DNA from: Acidithiobacillus marinus
GTDB lineage: Bacteria; Pseudomonadota; Gammaproteobacteria; Acidithiobacillales; Acidithiobacillaceae
NCBI RefSeq assembly: GCF_002847505.1
Contig: NZ_MXAV01000006.1
Span: forward strand, 1 to 64,000
Direction: 5' to 3'
DNA length: 64,000 nucleotides
Every line of letters begins with the position of its first letter. The stretch's first letter is position 1. Below the pieces are notes generated by a model. The model searched no databases, had not been told where the DNA came from, and worked only from the letters and a program-made list of their open reading frames with translations. A program made the translations under genes and the position numbers. Shown here piece by piece: positions 34,592-64,000 of this stretch.

Positions 34592-34669
<78 letters not shown>

Positions 34670-54134: not shown

Positions 54135-54554
54135 ATGGAAGCAGTCATGCAATCAACCGCTCTGCGGTATCAGTTGTTCATGGAAAAAATGAACAGCGTT
54201 CTCAGCAGTAAAAAGGTCGTGGTCACTGCCGCTTTGATGGTGGTTGCCGCTCTTGCCCTGATGATCCAGGCCCATGCCGGTACGGGGGGCACTTCCTTCT
54301 CTGCCGTGGCCACCAAGATCGAAGGCTGGGCGCAGGGTGATCTGGGACTCGCCATCGTTGCTGGCGGTCTGATCTTCGGTGTCGCCAGTATGGTCTTTAC
54401 GGGCCGTGGAACGGTGCTGGCTATCGTCGTCGGTGGCGCTGTGGCGCTGTATTACGGTATCCCGGTCTTGATCAACATATTCGCCGCGACCGCTGGCGCG
54501 GGTGTGGCCAAGACCTTGATCGTCAGCGGCGCTCACGCGGCAGGCGTGCTCTAA
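54135..54554 (+). CDS. traA: Conjugative pilin TraA precursor
   Basis: 139 residues from ATG 54135, with CAGGAGG before it. A long leader (about 1-48) ends in QAHAG, then a mature pilin of about 90 residues with two hydrophobic segments joined by a short basic turn (FTGRGT): EGWAQGDLGLAIVAGGLIF and VLAIVVGGAVALYYGIPVLI. The long leader and two-helix layout are those of F-type TraA. It follows the traLEKBV order, as in SXT/R391. The strongest ribosome site of the region fits high expression. Confidence 0.88.
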   Translation: MEAVMQSTALRYQLFMEKMNSVLSSKKVVVTAALMVVAALALMIQAHAGTGGTSFSAVATKIEGWAQGDLGLAIVAGGLIFGVASMVFTGRGTVLAIVVGGAVALYYGIPVLINIFAATAGAGVAKTLIVSGAHAAGVL

Positions 54555-55385
54555 ATGCGGTCTGGACCAGCGCGGTCCCTGGTCGGCGGCCTGGCCGCCG
54601 GCCTGCTTCTCACCTCGTCCGCCTGGGCGATGGCGGGAACTGTGCCGCAAAGCTACCAGGCAGGTGCCAAAACAATTATGGCCATGAGCCATGGTCAGGC
54701 ACAGATCATTCGGACATTTCCAGCGGTCGCGGATCTGAACGGCTATGCCGTCCAGCTTTCCCCCGGACACGCGCTGGTGATGTACACCTCCAAAGATGGC
54801 CAACACGTCTTCATGGGGGGCATCTTCAACAAGGCGGGGCAGAATCTTTCTGTCAGTTATGCCCACAAATATCTGCCCGCAAGCGATCTGCCGAAAAAGA
54901 TCTCTCCGACGGAGATGGGCAAGGCGGTCACAAAGACCACGAATTTCCTGATAGGAAACCCTAAAGCACCCAAGCAGGTGTGGATGGTCGCTGACCCCAA
55001 CTGCATTTTCTGCCATCTGACCTTTGAGCACCTGAAACCGGCAGTGAATACCGGGAAGCTCAAAATTCACCTGATCATTGTCGGGTTCCTCAAGCCCTCA
55101 TCGGCACCCAAGGCGGAAACCATTCTGGCGTCGAAGGATCCCGCAAAGGCCTGGCGCTACGATGAGGCCCATTTCAATGTGCCGGAAGAAGAAGGCGGCA
55201 TCGTGCCGCTCGCCAAAATCCCGGCCAGTGATGTCCGGGCCGTGAAAGCCAATAACACCTGGATGAACCAGCATGGCATCAACGGCACCCCGTTCCTGGT
55301 GTATAAAAACACCCAGGGGCACTGGGCCATCAATCCGGGGATGCCGGAGAATACGGCGGCATTCCTGAAAGGGATTCAGGGGTAG
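54555..55385 (+). CDS. dsbC: DsbC/DsbG-like thiol-disulphide isomerase
   Basis: 276 residues, ATG adjacent to the traA stop. Signal peptide to about residue 27 (SAWAMA), a dimerisation domain (IIRTFPAVADLNGYAVQLS), and a thioredoxin fold with the active site C150-I-F-C153 (DPNCIFCHLTFEHL), plus the cis-Pro loop GINGTPFLVYK. DsbC is a regular member of SXT-type transfer operons, where it folds disulphide-bonded T4SS proteins in the periplasm. Confidence 0.9.
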   Translation: MRSGPARSLVGGLAAGLLLTSSAWAMAGTVPQSYQAGAKTIMAMSHGQAQIIRTFPAVADLNGYAVQLSPGHALVMYTSKDGQHVFMGGIFNKAGQNLSVSYAHKYLPASDLPKKISPTEMGKAVTKTTNFLIGNPKAPKQVWMVADPNCIFCHLTFEHLKPAVNTGKLKIHLIIVGFLKPSSAPKAETILASKDPAKAWRYDEAHFNVPEEEGGIVPLAKIPASDVRAVKANNTWMNQHGINGTPFLVYKNTQGHWAINPGMPENTAAFLKGIQG

Positions 55386-55388
55386 TTT

Positions 55389-56591
55389 GTGGCGCAGGAA
55401 TCCCATGCCTTCATTTCCACCAGCGACCGGGATGGCTCGGTCGTTCATCTGTTGAATGATCTGTTTTATCAGGCGGCAGAGGAGGGATGGTCAGATCTGC
55501 ATTTTGAAACAGAATTGGACCAGTCGATGCGGATTCGCTCCCGGATTCTGGGGCGGCTCACTACACTGGAAACCGTCAAACCCCACGAAGGCATTCTGAT
55601 CCTGGCCAAATTGCGGTACCGCTCCAAACTCGCCGTGGACGAAACACGCAAAGAGCAGGACGGGCGATTTGTGCAGGAGATTGAAGGTCGGCGGGTGGAA
55701 ATCCGTTTGAACATTGTACCGACCGTGAATGGTGTGTCTGCCGTTTGTCGTTTGCTGGACTCCAAAAACGCTGGGATGCCCATTGAAAATCTCGGTATGC
55801 CACCAGAGGTGGAATCTCTGTATCGCTGGGCCTTGCAACAGAAAGAAGGCGCGATCATTGCCGGAGGACCAACCGGATCCGGTAAAACCACGACTCTTTA
55901 TGCCGGGATCGGCGCTATCAGCCGTCCCGACAACAAATTCATTACTGCTGAAGATCCGGTGGAGTTCGTGCTTCCCGGTATTCAGCAGATCCCCGTAGGA
56001 TCGGGGACAGGGCGAACCTTCGCCAGCGCGATTCGCGCCATGATGCGCCAGGATCCCGACGACATTCTCATTGGCGAAATCCGCGACGAAGAGACCGCGC
56101 AAATGGCCGCTCGCGCCGCCATTACCGGACACAAGGTTCTGGCTTCTATCCATGCCAATTCCGCCAATGGAGTGTTTTCCCGATTGCAGGATCTGGGTCT
56201 GCCAATACATCTAATGAAAGCCGCTATACGGGTCGTTTTTGCGCAGCGCATCATCAAGTGTGTTTGTCCGCATTGTGCCCAACCGCAGCCTGTGCAATAT
56301 CCGGAGATGCTGCAGGATAGCGGGTTGCCGATTCCTGATTCGGAAATGATTGGAGCGGGATGTGAACATTGCCGGGGTAATCCCGGATATGCTTCCCGGC
56401 GCGTTTTGTTTGAAGCAATCAAATACGACCAGGCGTACCGTGACGCGCTGGGGGACCAGGAAGCCATGCTTGCCGCTGCTCAAAAGCAGCCGCAATTCGC
56501 GCCGCTGACCACCTGGGGAGCGCGACTGGTGCATGAAGGTGTCACCAATAGCAAAGCCTTGTTTGAGGGTCTTTCTGATGTCAGCGACTAA
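55389..56591 (+). CDS. GspE/PilB-family secretion ATPase inside an F-type transfer operon
   Basis: 400 residues from GTG 55389. Walker A GGPTGSGKT (159-167), Asp-box region ITAEDPVEFVL, Walker B DDILIGEIRDEET (224-236), His-box GHKVLASIHAN (248-257), and a four-cysteine zinc motif C293-x2-C296...C325-x2-C328. The zinc motif is that of assembly ATPases (PilB/GspE), not retraction PilT. The N-terminus is short (no long N1E domain), giving 400 against about 560 residues. Such ATPases are not part of the standard F/SXT set, which relies on TraC. It overlaps the DsbA-like gene by 14 bases. Confidence 0.92.
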   Translation: MAQESHAFISTSDRDGSVVHLLNDLFYQAAEEGWSDLHFETELDQSMRIRSRILGRLTTLETVKPHEGILILAKLRYRSKLAVDETRKEQDGRFVQEIEGRRVEIRLNIVPTVNGVSAVCRLLDSKNAGMPIENLGMPPEVESLYRWALQQKEGAIIAGGPTGSGKTTTLYAGIGAISRPDNKFITAEDPVEFVLPGIQQIPVGSGTGRTFASAIRAMMRQDPDDILIGEIRDEETAQMAARAAITGHKVLASIHANSANGVFSRLQDLGLPIHLMKAAIRVVFAQRIIKCVCPHCAQPQPVQYPEMLQDSGLPIPDSEMIGAGCEHCRGNPGYASRRVLFEAIKYDQAYRDALGDQEAMLAAAQKQPQFAPLTTWGARLVHEGVTNSKALFEGLSDVSD

Positions 56592-57282
56592 ACCTGTTCT
56601 GCTTTCGGCGCTCCTGGTGGCGGCGATGGGTATAACGCCCGCTTGGGCCATGGATGGCTTGGGAGGGGGGATGCCTGATTTGGGTATGGGCGGTGCTCAG
56701 AACAATACGATGCCCCACTTTCAACCATACCGCACCGTAGATCTTGCGGGGATGCACAACGCCGTTATCGAGGCTCTGGTTTATGAGTGCCCTTTTTGTC
56801 GGGCGCTGAACCGGGAAATTCTGCGGTGGTCGCGCACTCTGCCGGCGAGTGTGCATTTTGAACAGATGCCCGCCGCTGTCGGGAAGTCGTGGATTCCCAT
56901 GACCCGCGCTTTTTTTACGGTGGAAGGCTATAACCCCGCCTTGCTTCCGAAATTTGATGACGCAGCTTTTGCCGAAGTTCAGGATCGGCACTCGCCTTAC
57001 TGGAGTCTCGATACTTATCAGATAGCCGCCGAAGATGTGGGTGTGCCTGCCAATATCTTTGAAATAGGCATTCATCTGAAACCCGTCACGGACATGGTGT
57101 TTCGTGATGTAAAAATCATGGCCAAGGCCCGCATTCGCAAAACCCCGTCGCTGATCATCTGCGGCCATTATGTGCTGAACCCCGGTGATGTGCAGGGCAA
57201 TTATTCCGAGTTCTTCGAGATGGCCAACGCACTGGTTTCGCGCTGTATCACACAAAACAAACTGGGGAGCAGCATCCATTGA
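56578..57282 (+). CDS. DsbA-like periplasmic thiol-disulphide oxidoreductase
   Basis: 234 residues from ATG 56578 (GAGGG seven bases before; ATG 56533 lies inside the ATPase gene). Signal peptide to about 24 (PAWAMDG), a Gly/Met-rich linker, thioredoxin fold with C71-P-F-C74 (YECPFCRAL), helical insert, and a KTPSLIICGHY cis-Pro-type loop. TraF/TrbB-like oxidoreductases have comparable roles in F. Overlaps traC by four bases. Confidence 0.85.
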   Translation: MSATKPVLLSALLVAAMGITPAWAMDGLGGGMPDLGMGGAQNNTMPHFQPYRTVDLAGMHNAVIEALVYECPFCRALNREILRWSRTLPASVHFEQMPAAVGKSWIPMTRAFFTVEGYNPALLPKFDDAAFAEVQDRHSPYWSLDTYQIAAEDVGVPANIFEIGIHLKPVTDMVFRDVKIMAKARIRKTPSLIICGHYVLNPGDVQGNYSEFFEMANALVSRCITQNKLGSSIH

Positions 57283-59942
57283 GTACGACCCTGAATGATC
57301 AACTGTATCGCCTGTTGGAGCGGCACAGCCTCGATACCCTTTTCCCATGGTACGCCTGGGACGAAAAACTGAAACTGGTTTTCATGGCACATGGATATAT
57401 CGGCTGTGTGATGGCCTGTAATCTCTTTTCCGGGATGGATGACAGTATCACGGAAGAGCTGGAATCCGCCTGGGCCATGAACTTGCCGCCGGATACCTTT
57501 GTGCAAATTATTCAGATGAATATCCCGGATGTGCAGGATCAGTTGCTGACCTTCCAGGGGGCACGTTCCGCGATTGCGGAAGATCCAGGGCTCACGGGTA
57601 ATCAGCGCAAGTTGATGGCGACGATTACTGACCAGACTGCCGCCTATTATGGGACGTTTCATGCTGCTGAAGCGCCGGTTTTCCGGGATTCCGGAGTACC
57701 GTTGACGGAATCCCAGGTCTTTATCGCCATCAAGATGCCAGTGGCGGAATTTCCGACCGATGAAGAGGTGCAAATGGTGCATGAGCGCATCACCTCTTTT
57801 CAGTCGAGCCTGAACAGTTTTAGCCCGGTTCGTCTATCCAGAGGACGCACGCTGGCCTTGTGGCGACGCTTCGTGCATATCCGGAGTGACTGGTTTGATG
57901 GGGTGGATGAAAACCAGCTCCTGCGCGATCAGATACTGGGTCCGGGAGATGGGGTGGATGATCGTTCAGATCTGTTTTCTATCCAGCATGGTGACGGTGA
58001 AAGCGATGTGATCAAAGTGCTTTCCGTAAAAGGGTTTACCCGACCGATCAATGCTGCTTCTACCAATTTCCTGATGGGAGATCCGTTAGGGAAGGGCGGG
58101 CAGATGCTCACCCCTGCTGCAGTCGTTCTTACGCTGCGATTGCCGGATCAGGTCAAGAAACGGAATGAACTGAACAGCAAGCAGGTCATTACCAATATGC
58201 AGGCACGCGGCAGGATGGCCAAGTGGTCGCCGCGCCTCGGAATGCGTAAAGAGGGGATCGACTTTCTGATTCACGCACTGGACAGCGGCGATCATGCGGT
58301 AGAGATGAACGTCACCGGCATTATCTGGGGGAAGACGAAGGAAGAGGCGGATAAGGCGGCCAAAGGGTTTGTTTCACAAGCCGCCAAAGCGGGATTTACC
58401 TTTCTGGAAGATAATTTTCTGGCATTACCCATGTTTCTGAACGCCTTACCGCTTTTTCCGGACGAGCAGAGCTTGTTCATGACGAAGCGAATGCTTTCGG
58501 GCACCACCAGTCAGGCGGCAGTCTGTGCGCCGTTGCTGGTGGACTGGACGGGCAACATCCAGGGGAACCAACGCATGACCGTTCCAGGGGCGGGCACCGT
58601 TTTCGTCACCCGCCGTGGGCACCTGCTCCTCTTTGATCTGTATGCTTCGGAATCCGGGTTTAACTTCGTTCTGGCGGGGCGTACCCGTTCGGGCAAGTCT
58701 GTGACGGCTCAACAGCTCCTACTGGACCAGTTGAGCCTAGGCGCACAGGTCTGGGCGATTGAAATAGGCCGGTCCTTTGAAAAACTCTGTACGGTTTTTC
58801 AAGGGGATCATATAGATCTGCGCCCGGATATGGATATTGGTCTGAATCCATTTTCCGTCGTGGAAAATCTGCATGACGAAATGGATGAATTGGTCGGTAT
58901 ATTAGGGACAATGATTTCACCGAAAGGCGAACTCAGCGACCGGGATCTGAATATCATTGAGCTGGCCATTGAATCCATTTTCGGCAACATGGGTCAGGAC
59001 GCCACCCCGACGCACATGGCGGAATATCTGGTAGCGCAGGATAACGACCCCCGCGCCATAGAAATGGGAAAAATGCTGCACCGCTTCACGGATCACGGCG
59101 CTTATGGGCACTGGTTCAATCAACCGATGAACGTGGACTTGCGGGGCCGGTTCGTCAATCTGGAATTGAAAGAACTCGAAAACCGTCATCACCTGCTCAT
59201 GGTGGTCCTGATGCAGATGATGTTCGCCATCGGTCGAGAAATCGGACGTGGTGATGGTGGGGCGGGAGAGATTCGCAGAAGAGTGCTGTTTGTGGATGAG
59301 GCCAGCGTACTCTTGCAGATCCCGACAGCGGCCAAATTCCTGGAAGGATTATCACGCCGCGTGGCCAAGAATCGCGGATCCCTGGGGCTCGGACTGCAGG
59401 GACTCAGAGATCTGTATATGAACGATTATACCCGTGTCATAGCTTCCCAGACGGCGCATTTTCTGGTGATGAAACAGCATCGGGATGTGCTGGACCAGCT
59501 TGAAAATGATCGACTGTTTTCGGTCGGTGGATCTGCGTATGAAATGATGCGGAGCTTGCGAAAGACGGGTGAATACGCCGAGTGTTTTATTATGAGTGAA
59601 GACCAGATGGGTATTGGTCGTCTGAAACTCGACCCGTATCGACGGGTGCTGTTTGCGACGGATGGACCGGAAAAAGAGGAGGTAATCGCCGCCATGCGCA
59701 GCGGGGTTCCGCCGGATCAGGCGATCCGGGATTTTCTGGATCAGCAGAAAACCTATATCGCCACCCAGGAGTTGGCCGAAGAAGAAAAGGATCCTGAAGA
59801 CGCTGACGATACTCACCTGGACTATCTCAAATCCATAAAGGAAGTTGAAGATCAGATGTTGAAAACGCAGCAGGAAGCAGAGAAACAAGCACAAAACACC
59901 GATACATCCGGCAGATCGAGGCGCAAATGGAAGATATTTTGA
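57279..59942 (+). CDS. traC: Type IV secretion ATPase TraC
   Basis: 887 residues from TTG 57279. VirB4-like motor for pilus assembly. Walker A GRTRSGKS (about 467-474), Walker B RRVLFVDEAS (about 668-676), preceded by the TraC N-terminal domain with VMACNLFSGMDDSITEELE. Polar, Lys/Glu-rich tail ending in KWKIF. Soluble, at the inner face of the membrane. Overlaps trbI by 16 bases. Confidence 0.95.
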   Translation: MSTTLNDQLYRLLERHSLDTLFPWYAWDEKLKLVFMAHGYIGCVMACNLFSGMDDSITEELESAWAMNLPPDTFVQIIQMNIPDVQDQLLTFQGARSAIAEDPGLTGNQRKLMATITDQTAAYYGTFHAAEAPVFRDSGVPLTESQVFIAIKMPVAEFPTDEEVQMVHERITSFQSSLNSFSPVRLSRGRTLALWRRFVHIRSDWFDGVDENQLLRDQILGPGDGVDDRSDLFSIQHGDGESDVIKVLSVKGFTRPINAASTNFLMGDPLGKGGQMLTPAAVVLTLRLPDQVKKRNELNSKQVITNMQARGRMAKWSPRLGMRKEGIDFLIHALDSGDHAVEMNVTGIIWGKTKEEADKAAKGFVSQAAKAGFTFLEDNFLALPMFLNALPLFPDEQSLFMTKRMLSGTTSQAAVCAPLLVDWTGNIQGNQRMTVPGAGTVFVTRRGHLLLFDLYASESGFNFVLAGRTRSGKSVTAQQLLLDQLSLGAQVWAIEIGRSFEKLCTVFQGDHIDLRPDMDIGLNPFSVVENLHDEMDELVGILGTMISPKGELSDRDLNIIELAIESIFGNMGQDATPTHMAEYLVAQDNDPRAIEMGKMLHRFTDHGAYGHWFNQPMNVDLRGRFVNLELKELENRHHLLMVVLMQMMFAIGREIGRGDGGAGEIRRRVLFVDEASVLLQIPTAAKFLEGLSRRVAKNRGSLGLGLQGLRDLYMNDYTRVIASQTAHFLVMKQHRDVLDQLENDRLFSVGGSAYEMMRSLRKTGEYAECFIMSEDQMGIGRLKLDPYRRVLFATDGPEKEEVIAAMRSGVPPDQAIRDFLDQQKTYIATQELAEEEKDPEDADDTHLDYLKSIKEVEDQMLKTQQEAEKQAQNTDTSGRSRRKWKIF

Positions 59943-60436
59943 AAGATTCTCCCAAAGAAACAGTTCCGAAGATCGAGCAGTCAGAGAGGGCAACATCGTC
60001 CGCCCCGGAACCGCCGACCAAGCCGACATTCCGGGAGCGTTATGCGTATCCACTTATGCTGGTGGTGGGCGTGCTGGCGGCTGGTGGCATCTCTTTCCTG
60101 GTCCAGTCGGGAATGCTTACCTGGAATGGCGGACACCAGAGTGCGACATCAGACGGTCCCCGCATGGTGCGCGTGGTGTATATCAACACCGGGCAAATCA
60201 TGGCCGATGTGCTCAAATCTCAAATGAATGGAACCCTGACCCGTCATCAGGCGGCGGAGATGGGCCATATTATCGGTTTGACGGTTCAGGAAATCGCATC
60301 CGGATACGCAAAACAGGGAGACATCGTGTTATCCCGCAACGTGCTGGCGGCTCCGGAATCCAACAATATGACCGCAGATGCGCTGGCTGTAGTGAAAGCA
60401 CGTCTGGCCCAGCGGTTCGGGCAAACCGATGACTAA
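59927..60436 (+). CDS. trbI: TrbI-type conjugal transfer protein
   Basis: 169 residues: acidic cytoplasmic start, one transmembrane helix (about 45-64), then a periplasmic helical domain with VVYINTGQIMADVL and a coiled region (MNGTLTRHQAAEMGHIIG). Matches the TrbI_Ftype layout between traC and traW; in F it influences pilus retraction. Longer than F TrbI (128) by the N-terminal part. Confidence 0.75.
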   Translation: MEDILKDSPKETVPKIEQSERATSSAPEPPTKPTFRERYAYPLMLVVGVLAAGGISFLVQSGMLTWNGGHQSATSDGPRMVRVVYINTGQIMADVLKSQMNGTLTRHQAAEMGHIIGLTVQEIASGYAKQGDIVLSRNVLAAPESNNMTADALAVVKARLAQRFGQTDD

Positions 60437-60962
60437 TACCGGCCTGACACTGCGCTCCAAAATGGTGCTGATTCTGGGGTTGGGAGCTTTGGCAGTGGTG
60501 GTAGGGGTATTGGTGCGGCCAGCCATCGCCATGCACTACGGGTTGTCCATGGACCCGCAGTATCAGTCCTGTCTGCCCTGGTCGAACTTTCTGGTGGAGT
60601 ATGGGCCAACACAACCGCTACCGGGAGAGTTGGTCCTGTTTCATGATCGGAAAGTAGACGCCATTTCTGGAGGGAAACCGATTGAAGTGGTCAAGATGGT
60701 GGCGGGTGTGCCTGGGGATCGCGTCAAAATCACGGCGAACAGCATCTGGATCGCCGGCCCTCATGGGCCGTATCGCTACTGGGGCAAAAGATGGTTGATG
60801 CCTTGGGTGAGGTATAAGCATCTGCATGTTCTGCCGCCTGAGACAATGGTTATTCCCAAGGGCCACTATCTGCTCATGGGTAACACGCCGGGTTCCTATG
60901 ATGGGCGCTACTGGGGACTGGTTCCTGCAAAGAACATTACTGGTCGTGCCTGGGCTTTATAG
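60429..60962 (+). CDS. TraF/TrhF-like S26 leader peptidase
   Basis: 177 residues. One N-terminal helix (about 12-33), catalytic Ser in YQSCLPWSNF, catalytic Lys in VVKMVAGVPGD, and the box III-like DGRYWGLVPAKNITGRAWAL. This is the conjugation branch of signal peptidase I (TrhF of R27/SXT, TraF of RP4) that processes a pilin or other envelope substrate. The next gene, 17 bases on, is a pilin-domain fusion and a possible substrate. Confidence 0.87.
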   Translation: MTNTGLTLRSKMVLILGLGALAVVVGVLVRPAIAMHYGLSMDPQYQSCLPWSNFLVEYGPTQPLPGELVLFHDRKVDAISGGKPIEVVKMVAGVPGDRVKITANSIWIAGPHGPYRYWGKRWLMPWVRYKHLHVLPPETMVIPKGHYLLMGNTPGSYDGRYWGLVPAKNITGRAWAL

Positions 60963-60979
60963 TTTAACAGAGGATTTTT

Positions 60980-61993
60980 ATGCTCGGTTTCTCTCCCATG
61001 ATCTGCGAGTTCCAGGGCTGGGCACAAGGCGGCCTGGGAATGGTGGTGCTCGGTGCCGGGTTGCTCTTTGCGATTGGACTGATGGTGTATTTCCGCTGGA
61101 CGGGAGCCATTCCCTATGTGCTGGGCGGGGCGCTGGACATGTATTATGGGGTGCCCGTCGTCGAGAACCTGTTCCACTGGAATCAGGATTGTACGGTGGT
61201 GTTGTCACAGTTTGCTCAGGAGGAGCAATATGTGAATAACACACGTTATTGTGAAGATCACTTGTTTAGTGTGGACGAGCAGACCGGAGAGGATTGTTCC
61301 TGTAACGGAGAATCATCGACGCCGCAGTGTGAGAGCTATGCGGATGCCTGTCAGCAGGCGCTTCCAGGAGTAGAAAGCAACACCACTTATTGTAGTTGCA
61401 GCTCTGCGAACGCGCTGCAAGAGTCCACTCCTGTATGCAACACCATTCCTGACGGTGGCAAAGTTGTTGACGCTGTTCCTGCAAATCAAACCTGTTCAGG
61501 AATACTTAATAATTCGGAATGTTCTCAGTACCGACAAGATATGGCTAATGCACAATGGATTTCATCTGTTAATGCTGGTTCAGATTCTAGTCCATCAGAT
61601 TTTGTTCCTGGAGCTTATTCCACATTTCAAACCCAAATTGATAACGTAACCGGCTCACCCCAAAAGGTTACTTGGTATGCTGAAACGGAACGCCAGGGAT
61701 GGTATTACCTGAATGGCCAGCAAGTCGGTGAATCAAATAACTATGGCGATGTAAGTAAAATCACTATCACTCTGCAGCCTGGAGAGAATACTCTGGACAC
61801 TTCTGCTTATGAAAATCCTGACACCATCGGTGATTACTATGGGACGATAGATCAAGTGGACGGTCCTAATGGCACCGTTTATTCGTCTTCCTCACCGCAA
61901 TCTTGGTACGAAGTGAAAAACCCGCCAACAACACCTAAACCGCCGCCATCCGGCTCTACGGTAAACTGCTACACCCAAAGTTGCGCTGGATAG
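60980..61993 (+). CDS. Pilin domain fused to a cysteine-rich exported region (candidate pilus-tip/adhesin subunit)
   Basis: 337 residues from ATG 60980 (GAGGA eight bases before). Residues about 10-66 align without gaps to mature TraA of the same element: 23 of 55 identical, including GWAQG, MV, VxGGA and YYGxPV; two hydrophobic segments. No long leader precedes it. About 270 residues follow: a cysteine-rich part (near 72-180, most of the protein's 14 cysteines; DCSCNGE, YCSCSSA), then a beta-sandwich-like part with WYAETERQGWYYLNGQQVG and ITITLQPGENTL, typical of carbohydrate- or ligand-binding folds, and a Pro-rich end with NCYTQSC. From about 61480 the DNA is visibly AT-richer than its neighbours. 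TraA-like topology would place the extra part outside the inner membrane. Confidence 0.75.
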   Translation: MLGFSPMICEFQGWAQGGLGMVVLGAGLLFAIGLMVYFRWTGAIPYVLGGALDMYYGVPVVENLFHWNQDCTVVLSQFAQEEQYVNNTRYCEDHLFSVDEQTGEDCSCNGESSTPQCESYADACQQALPGVESNTTYCSCSSANALQESTPVCNTIPDGGKVVDAVPANQTCSGILNNSECSQYRQDMANAQWISSVNAGSDSSPSDFVPGAYSTFQTQIDNVTGSPQKVTWYAETERQGWYYLNGQQVGESNNYGDVSKITITLQPGENTLDTSAYENPDTIGDYYGTIDQVDGPNGTVYSSSSPQSWYEVKNPPTTPKPPPSGSTVNCYTQSCAG

Positions 61994-62079: not shown

Positions 62080-62961
62080 TTGAGATTCCGTACCACCCTG
62101 ATCGCCGCTACTATTGGCATTTTCAGCATCCCGCAGGCCTTGGCCGCTCCGACGGGCATCCTCGCGCATGTGCTGGCATCCCATCATGCGGGGAAGATTC
62201 TTCGGACTTTTCCCGGCCCTGACGGATTGACGGGTGTGGTCATGGATTACAATGGCTCCAAGGCCATTGCCTACCTCACGCCGGACGGCAAATATCTGAT
62301 CAGCGGTCTGGTGGCCAATCTCGAAAACGGTGAAAACCTGACCGGCATTTACGGCAACAAATACATCGGCAAGCTCCCTATTGTCCATGGTCAGGCCGCC
62401 GAACAGATCGCATTCCAGTGCGCGTCCCTGTCCGGGATCACGGTCGGCAACCCGAAGGCCGCCAATGAGATGATTGCCGTATTCAATCCATCGACGAAGT
62501 TCGGTTATCGCGTGATGGGGGCGATGATGGGTGAGGCGGGCAGCCTGCAGAAAAAAAACGCTTTCCACGTCATGTCCCTGAAGCTCGTGCCTATCGGCCC
62601 CATGGCTCCGGCGCTCTTGTCAGCCGACAATCAGGGCCGGGAAGACCGGTTGCTGAATGCACTCAATCACCACTCGATAGGCGCGACCACGACGCTCGGT
62701 GCGAATTTTGCCACGCGCAATAACACGGTACTGCAGCAAATCCACATGAAGCCCCCGTTCCTGGTCCTCTACTTCCCCCAGGCCAATATGACAGCGGCGA
62801 TACAGTTGCACAGCCTCTTGCGCGTTGCCTCTGCCGTAGGATCTGCTGAAGTGCTGGCCAAGGGCTTGCAAAGTCCCCCTGCGGGGAGCAGTCCTGGCGG
62901 ACAGCAAAGCCCTGCCGGGAGCATCCCTGCCGGGAGCATCCCCCCTGGGGGTGCTCCTTGA
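62080..62961 (+). CDS. Second DsbC-like protein lacking the catalytic CxxC
   Basis: 293 residues from TTG 62080. Signal peptide to about 22 (ALAAP), DsbC-type N-domain (ILRTFPGPDGLTGVVMDYNG, KYLISGLVANLENGENL) close to that of the active DsbC at 54555, then a reduced thioredoxin-like part with VFNPSTKFGYRVMG, in which S138-T-K-F141 occupies the CxxC position. One cysteine is left (AFQCASLSG). The C-terminus is a Pro/Gly/Ser repeat. Likely a chaperone or structural subunit, not an enzyme. Stop overlaps the next start (TGATG). Confidence 0.7.
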   Translation: MRFRTTLIAATIGIFSIPQALAAPTGILAHVLASHHAGKILRTFPGPDGLTGVVMDYNGSKAIAYLTPDGKYLISGLVANLENGENLTGIYGNKYIGKLPIVHGQAAEQIAFQCASLSGITVGNPKAANEMIAVFNPSTKFGYRVMGAMMGEAGSLQKKNAFHVMSLKLVPIGPMAPALLSADNQGREDRLLNALNHHSIGATTTLGANFATRNNTVLQQIHMKPPFLVLYFPQANMTAAIQLHSLLRVASAVGSAEVLAKGLQSPPAGSSPGGQQSPAGSIPAGSIPPGGAP

Positions 62962-64000
62962 TGCCGCCTATCAACATGGCGCAGGTGCAGTCCATCGTTC
63001 AACGCTCGGACAGCATCATGCGCTCGGCGGGCCAGCAGAAAGCCCCGGAGTGGGAGAAACGAGGCGTAAAACTCTCCGCGAGTGATCGGCCTACGTCCAA
63101 AGAGTTTGTTCAGCCTGCCAAAAACGACTTACAACGCTTTGCCGCCGAATACGCCATGGAATCCAATGCACAGGCTCAGGCGTTTCTCCGCAAGCGCGTC
63201 CATGGCGTGCCCGTGATTCCACCGAATCTGCACGGGAAAGCCCTGCAGGAGTATGTGGATCACACGTTGATGCACAAAGAGGAGATGCAGGCGAAAACAC
63301 TGGTGTTCATCTCCATGAATATGCCCCACAGCATCTTGCGACACTGGTTCAAGGAAGTGGCTGACAACCAGAAGCTCTTTCAAAGCACGGTCTTCGTGCT
63401 ACGCGGCTGGCCCAACAAACCCGAAGGCCTGCCGGACATCATCAACCAGGTGAACGGGCTCATGCCGTCTTTCAAAAAGACCGCCAATGTGGAGATCAAT
63501 CCCATCGAGTTCACCGATCATCGGGTGAATCTGGCTCCGGTGATCATTCACCAGGCTCCTGACGGAAAATGGGGATCCATTGTCGGTGATGGCGACGGGC
63601 TGCGCGGTGCGATCAAGGCCATCAATGCGGGCAAAGGGAATCCGCACAAGATTCACGGCCAGACCTGGAAGATCGCTGAACCCAACATGGTCACGGTGTT
63701 CGAGAAAAAGATCAAAACCTTTAACTGGAAAAAAGCCGAAGCCGAAGCCAAAAACCGGGACTGGCAGGAGGTCCGGATGCGGATCGGCGACAAGTTGCCG
63801 GATTCCCGTCGTGGCCGCTTCTACACCTACAACCCCAGCATCATCGCTACCGCGACGATCCGCCTGCCGTCCGGCAAGATTCTGGTCCACAAGGGACAGA
63901 TGCTCGACCCCCTGACCGCCATGCCCTTTGGTTGGACCCAGAGCTACATCGTCTTCAACCCCGCGCAGGCCTGGCAGGTGGCCCAGGTCGAAGCCTGGGA
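62961..64000 (+). CDS. TrbC-TraW fusion protein (3' end cut by window edge)
   Basis: 346 codons visible from ATG 62961. Residues about 110-190 match TrbC (thioredoxin-like pilus assembly factor): TLVFISMNMPHSILRHWFKE, VFVLRGWPNKPEGLPDI. From about 235 the sequence matches TraW: GRFYTYNPSIIATATIRLPS, then GQMLDPLTAMPFGWTQSYIVF and NPAQAWQVAQV. In F, trbC and traW are separate genes; a fused form is known in other F-type systems. No N-terminal signal peptide is clear from the ATG, which is odd for a periplasmic protein. traU is expected next. Confidence 0.8.
   Translation, partial: MPPINMAQVQSIVQRSDSIMRSAGQQKAPEWEKRGVKLSASDRPTSKEFVQPAKNDLQRFAAEYAMESNAQAQAFLRKRVHGVPVIPPNLHGKALQEYVDHTLMHKEEMQAKTLVFISMNMPHSILRHWFKEVADNQKLFQSTVFVLRGWPNKPEGLPDIINQVNGLMPSFKKTANVEINPIEFTDHRVNLAPVIIHQAPDGKWGSIVGDGDGLRGAIKAINAGKGNPHKIHGQTWKIAEPNMVTVFEKKIKTFNWKKAEAEAKNRDWQEVRMRIGDKLPDSRRGRFYTYNPSIIATATIRLPSGKILVHKGQMLDPLTAMPFGWTQSYIVFNPAQAWQVAQVEAW

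Follow-up and report, generated by a model that had tools for sequence, protein, structure and literature searches.

The filament of F-type conjugation systems is described as being made of the pilin TraA plus phospholipid, and TraN is the known adhesin that stabilises the mating pair in these systems. The FimH-type chaperone-usher adhesins carry a pilin and a sugar-binding domain in one polypeptide, as does the protein described here, but their lectin is N-terminal, i.e., the order is reversed, and their pilin fold and assembly pathway are unrelated.

The PilV minor pilins of the IncI1/IncI2 type IV pili (R64, TP114) have a conserved N-terminal pilin domain and a variable C-terminal adhesin, the same arrangement as in our fusion, and the adhesin of PilV selects the recipients of conjugation (PMC9045228). 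PilV differs, however, in its type III signal sequence, its assembly machine, the generation of variants by shufflon inversion, and a fold unrelated to that of the fusion. VirB5 of T-pili and of IncN/IncW systems (TraC of pKM101) is a proposed tip adhesin beside the major pilin, a role like that proposed below for the fusion, but it is alpha-helical and not covalently joined to a pilin; no VirB5 tip protein has been recognised in F (PMC12624023, Table 1). In other F-type plasmids, variable tip domains of TraN decide the recipient range (PMC9246713, PMC13104618). As for ICEAfe1, the best-studied relative, the study on this element recognises two TraA pilins and shows pili of the system imaged with an anti-TraA serum (PMC6370655).

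We have analysed a stretch of 64,000 nucleotides from Acidithiobacillus marinus (the window), belonging to a contig (C56) that runs for 97,305 bases. Within an F-type operon of the ICEAfe1 type, the gene located at 60980..61993 (+) encodes a pilin-lectin fusion of 337 aa plus stop.

Pilin domain of the fusion

Read directly in the DNA, a Shine-Dalgarno-like AGAGGA sequence (60969..60974, +) precedes the start codon of the fusion, an ATG, by 5 bases. This ATG is 8 codons before Cys9 and only 4 open codons exist upstream of it; judged by this reading of the ORF and its upstream region, the protein has no N-terminal leader, unlike TraA, the ordinary pilin of the element (54138..54554, +), which has a leader and a signal-peptidase-like site (AHA|G) and is mature from about 54279. 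An annotation or frame artefact was rejected on the grounds that the ORF is intact, has a ribosome-binding site, and is conserved across six genomes. Pfam and PHROGs provided no family name for the fusion, and at its locus a promoter scan gave no more matches than chance and a terminator scan nothing decisive.

Residues 1-70 (60980..61189, +) constitute a TraA/VirB2-type pilin domain according to BLASTP, AF2, and Foldseek. The ungapped homology to the TraA of the element, which the sequence-only reading had given as 23 identities over 55 residues, extends by BLASTP over residues 4-65 of the fusion with 25/62 identities and 41/62 positives (E=9e-16). This alignment scored 146, whereas the best of 2000 composition shuffles scored 53 and the best of 2000 shuffles that preserved the local hydropathy pattern scored 77. 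In addition, when the pilin domains of the fusions were used as a profile, the TraAs that are encoded separately came up with E-values of about 1e-15 to 1e-17. The fusion and TraA share the W..G.LG and YYG.P residues, and have in common the pilin-specific residues W14, G17, L19, G20, A51, and Y55. The shuffle controls and these specific retained residues led us to reject a chance likeness of hydrophobic helices. At the family level, the cut-off of NF041281 (TraA_gammapb; 50 bits) was reached neither by the fusion (12.3) nor by the element's own TraA (35.7), the fusion had no Pfam match, to TraA or TrbC/VirB2 included, and the pilin profile, run by itself against PDB sequences, gave no meaningful match.

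The sequence-only reading depended on the first 66 residues folding as a pilin hairpin, and both AF2 models place there an alpha1-alpha2-alpha3 arrangement (H5-16, H18-38, and H43-64/65), with moderate confidence (mean pLDDT 69.8 for the pilin part and 63.9 for the whole fusion). A Foldseek search of the PDB with the 72-residue pilin model returned 9 matches, of which the best 8 are all conjugative pilins, i.e., T-pilus VirB2 of Agrobacterium and H-pilus TrhA (TM 0.67-0.76, rmsd 1.6-2.2 A), and the ninth is noise; the E-values are weak (0.34 upward), as is usual for a helical hairpin of this size, and the match list is specific. As in the TraA, TrhA, and VirB2 pilins of F-, H-, and T-pili, the alpha1-alpha2-alpha3 hairpin has a positive residue in the interhelix loop. 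In contrast to these pilins, whose mature forms have about 65-90 aa, the 337-aa fusion bears a large C-terminal cargo and has no leader to remove. The two-helix VirB2-type hairpin, in place of a type III signal and a single N-terminal helix, also sets it apart from the PilV family.

Apart from the Arg of the interhelix loop, no basic residue is located near the helices, whose flanks are acidic, from which we infer an N-out/C-out topology that leaves the two ends of the hairpin in the periplasm. In the orthologous fusions the hairpin is bordered by Cys9 and Cys71, which TraA does not have; from their positions in the sequence, they may clamp both ends of the hairpin together.

A leaderless protein might also use the hairpin as a mere anchor or docking piece and stay in the inner membrane or periplasm as a stalk-like or VirB5-like nucleating factor, whose head never meets the recipient. 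The long helix that follows the hairpin could form such a stalk, the gene lies among the assembly genes traC, S26 peptidase, and trbC-traW, and VirB5 pentamers act as a stalk for pilin laying and later as a tip (PMC12624023). We consider this explanation doubtful, since a plain anchor does not need to retain the pilin-specific residues named above, and since the lectin-like fold of the head, described in the next section, is common to the surface adhesin TraN.

Cysteine-rich module and lectin-like head

After the hairpin, AF2 predicts a helix, a cysteine-rich module, a beta-sandwich, and a Pro-rich tail, in this order. The long helix comprises residues 71-102 (61190..61285, +; pLDDT about 75-80) and includes Cys71 and Cys91. 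Residues 104-181 (61289..61522, +) correspond to the Cys-rich module, related to a 308-aa secreted protein of the element, and a variable linker comes after it. The galactose-binding/PA14-like beta-sandwich occupies residues 191-318 (61550..61933, +), and the tail residues 319-337 (61934..61990, +), with a conserved NCYTQSCAG end in our alignment A1 that contains Cys330 and Cys335. We have counted 14 cysteines in the fusion (9, 71, 91, 106, 108, 117, 124, 138, 140, 153, 172, 181, 330, and 335), 13 of them C-terminal to the pilin hairpin, in agreement with the earlier observation that most lie beyond the pilin part.

Where the sequence-only reading had seen a ligand-binding-like beta region, structure prediction and profile searches confirmed a real domain that is lectin/PA14-like and common to TraN, which strengthens the adhesin reading. 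By Foldseek, the beta-sandwich matched the lectin of Pleurotus ostreatus (E=1.7e-5) and, at about 1e-3, the sugar-binding PA14 domain of MpAFP, an RTX adhesin of Marinomonas, and a profile of the domain matched the Pleurotus lectin at E=2.8e-5, spanning both lectin repeats. The head has in common with these proteins the beta-sandwich and a ..NG..VG signature. Pfam PA14 was matched by one of the 18 members of the alignment (E 0.17) and not by the window protein. The fusion had no PF06986 (TraN) domain, and VirB5 appeared neither as a Pfam/NCBIfam family match nor among the best 50 PDB matches.

The PA14 lectins bind sugar via a calcium that is held by an Asp-Asp pair (PMC8092209). At the corresponding site, the window fusion has TERQGWYYLNG, in which, in contrast to these lectins, the DD (DcisD) before the NG turn is replaced; three orthologues have SDN.GWY, one has TDDSGWY, and four of the five TraN copies have ADD.G. 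The predicted fold of the head is lectin-like, but sugar binding by the window copy is uncertain because the calcium-binding pair is absent there. This loss, like the absence of a leader, had escaped the sequence-only reading.

Counterparts of the C-terminal modules occur in TraN and in two further secreted proteins of the element, all of them outside the window available to that reading. The 308-aa secreted protein (contig 69650-70576; L005:9650-10576) contains the cysteine module, and a secreted protein of 460 aa (contig 70468-71850; E=1e-12 to the fusion) contains the beta domain. TraN (C56:65756-68722; L005:5756-8722; PF06986 E=5.5e-28) contains a homologous beta domain at about residues 432-583. 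Comparing the fusions with the TraN copies, BLASTP gave E-values down to 1e-6, and TraN and the 460-aa protein are linked at 6e-13; the iterated beta-domain profile retrieved TraN at 6e-44, a value that is inflated because TraN was already part of the profile. TraN is cysteine-rich like the fusion, but it is an outer-membrane protein, whereas the fusion has its head on a pilin and the element keeps TraN as a separate protein. The PA14/lectin-like domain inserted in TraN, whose sequence has an intact DD calcium-type motif, is a candidate sugar-binding tip of TraN.

The 308-aa protein is made of repeated C.C...P.C modules and has a C-terminal region that varies among relatives. In another genome (G010), the beta domain is present twice in the counterpart of the 460-aa protein (L032:8351-9712). 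The first copy is 45% identical to the domain in the TraN of G010, a likeness that points to a shuffling of domains between TraN and this secreted protein.

Conservation and gene neighbourhood

Full-length orthologues of the fusion, 47-56% identical, were found in five other Acidithiobacillus genomes, with all 14 cysteines kept at corresponding positions. An ordinary TraA is encoded in each of these genomes as well, and one of them (G007) has two. The common gene order is traC, a gene for a small membrane protein, the S26 peptidase gene, the fusion, a DsbG-like gene, trbC-traW, traU, and traN. Since two of the genomes (G008 and G005) are nearly identical at the locus and G005 has 7% contamination, the independent orthologues are four. 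G005 also carries a second, divergent fusion with a pilin-like hairpin (33% identical; contig C873, L039:50-1090) and a fragment with a partial beta domain (2533-2910); the divergent copy suggests a second, older fusion lineage.

The GC content is 0.59 in the pilin part and falls to 0.47 in the remainder, and the fusion is the most divergent among the neighbouring genes, features that would also fit a recent, non-functional recombinant of traA and an adhesin gene. We regard such an origin as highly improbable, given that the gene is intact and syntenic in the five further genomes with its cysteines kept, and that dN is well below dS where dS is estimable, the synonymous sites being saturated in most comparisons.

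Divergence is unevenly distributed along the protein. Compared with its two nearest relatives, the window fusion is 81-83% identical in the pilin domain, 50-52% in the cysteine region, 13-24% in the linker (residues 161-190), 47% in the beta domain, and 78-79% in the tail, while the neighbouring tra proteins are mostly 72-94% identical, with the exception of a small TrbI-like protein (59-61%). This pattern is as expected of a constrained filament subunit joined to a diversifying recognition head, as far as sequence comparison can tell, and relaxed constraint might likewise explain why the lectin part is less conserved.

The highly variable linker might alternatively be a place where a precursor is cut, for example by the adjacent S26 peptidase, so that the products would be another variant of the pilin and a lectin-like adhesin secreted separately. 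The peptidase gene lies directly upstream of the fusion and both C-terminal modules also occur free-standing and secreted in the same element, but with those free-standing versions present a product of cleavage would be superfluous, we noticed no conserved signal-peptidase-like site beyond the hairpin, and the covalent architecture is kept in 6/6 genomes; we therefore find cleavage unlikely.

Upstream of the fusion are the genes encoding TraC, the VirB4-type ATPase (57279..59942, +; PF11130 E 1.5e-39), and the S26-family (TraF-type) signal peptidase (60429..60962, +; PF10502 E 7e-22; TIGR02227 over cut-off), which has the SMDP and VVKMVAGVPGD motifs. Immediately downstream is a gene for a periplasmic protein similar to the N-domain of DsbG/DsbC (62080..62961, +), followed by trbC-traW (62958..64000, +; PF09673, TIGR02743), which continues past the window and encodes a single protein of about 419 aa that combines TrbC and TraW. 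Thus, the position of the fusion between a leader peptidase gene and a Dsb-like gene, pointed out before, was correct, but the Dsb-like protein has no CXXC, neither here nor in any orthologous copy that covers the region (NPSTKF and similar in place of the DPNCIFC of DsbG), and is for this reason not an active disulphide enzyme. Having lost this motif, it may be a chaperone instead of an enzyme, perhaps one dedicated to the fusion, since its gene is always directly 3' of it in the syntenic relatives. As had been proposed, several Dsb-type proteins are encoded by the element: DsbG (54555-55385) with a CIFC motif, a DsbA-like protein (56533-57282) with CPFC, and, beyond the window, a DsbB-like protein.

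A gene for a PilB/GspE-like ATPase (55389-56591) is located within the operon between dsbG and the dsbA-like gene, as also occurs in relatives; to our knowledge, F itself has no VirB11-type ATPase. The mobile part is separated from a core gene region (pheT-like) by a tRNA-Pro(GGG) gene (34592-34668), a possible integration site of the element.

Using as profiles TraA_gammapb, PF05513, and our alignments A1 and A3, we have searched up to 369 genomes of the class, 398 of the phylum, and 29 of the family, a non-exhaustive sample in which the fusion was not found outside the genus; only short TraAs were recovered there. We have discarded three matches in long frames: one to PF05513, in a frame of 627 aa that resembled a membrane protease of the HtpX type, and two at E about 0.01, in unrelated membrane proteins. 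The plasmids and viral contigs searched contained no fusion, and the nearest plasmid pilins were short and came from Acinetobacter. The A. baumannii plasmid CP081141 (L071) has an F-type operon with a pair of TraA-like pilins, nearly identical to each other and each with traL after it. A peptide-pattern search of GTDB contigs retrieved A. concretivorus only.

In the ICEAfe1 study, the S26 peptidase is AFE1091 and traW is AFE1095, and the remaining ORFs among the tra genes are hypothetical, some of them conserved; its main text does not mention AFE1092-1094 (PMC6370655). One of these three should be the orthologue of the fusion in ICEAfe1, within the gap between named tra genes, because the gene order matches in G007, the relative that has two TraAs. 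In the open-access literature searched, we came across no VirB2/TraA-type pilin described as joined to an adhesin, and the fusion has apparently gone unremarked in earlier work.

Proposed role in conjugation

The architecture of a pilin joined to a cysteine-rich and beta region stands, on the basis of the sequence, six genomes, AlphaFold, and Foldseek; the sequence-only reading is weakened by the calcium DD pair, missing in the window copy, and by the catalytic cysteines, lacking in the adjacent Dsb-like protein. The pilin-adhesin fusion is real and conserved, and its function is what we infer. We propose, with a probability of roughly 0.6, that it is a minor, adhesin-bearing pilin of this ICEAfe1-type F-type conjugation system.

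In the proposed mechanism, the first approximately 70 residues, whose homology and predicted fold are those of a TraA-type pilin, would insert as a hairpin of two helices, its two ends lying in the periplasm. The helix, the disulphide-stabilised module, and the PA14/lectin-like beta-sandwich would fold in this compartment, where the DsbG, DsbA-like, and DsbB-like proteins of the element should be available. The fusion would then be built into the TraA filament, either at the tip, as the first subunits laid, or sparsely along it. In the ICEAfe1 study, the modelled pili have the variable subunit ends outside and a lysine lining the lumen (PMC6370655), and consequently the C-terminal head would project outward. 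There it would bind a ligand on the recipient surface, probably a glycan, before TraN stabilises the mating pair.

A pilus subunit decorated in this manner might instead serve for attachment to minerals or to the biofilm matrix, or for masking from male-specific phages, and not for recognising the recipient. The hosts live attached to minerals, and the ICEAfe1 study describes pilus-like structures of A. ferrooxidans that are seen more readily in sulphur-grown than in tetrathionate-grown cells (PMC6370655). However, the gene travels with the tra operon and the head domain is common to the mating adhesin TraN, and such a use appears very unlikely to us.

Regarding the location of the proposed minor pilin, placement at the tip is attractive given that F is without a recognised VirB5 (PMC12624023), although our analysis of the data favours neither the tip nor a scattered placement. 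Tentatively, in F-type systems of this kind, the fusion might be the dedicated tip of the pilus, which starts the assembly and picks the recipient through its rapidly diverging head. The element would then read its recipients twice with homologous domains, at the tip and then by TraN.

What F-type pili use to touch and choose the recipient is unsettled, and the fusion, if confirmed, would provide a defined adhesive subunit for this pilus class. The combination of a pilin with a TraN-related head would, if true, be a directly testable tip or decorating adhesin, and it would also be a natural precedent for the display of large folded domains on VirB2-type filaments.
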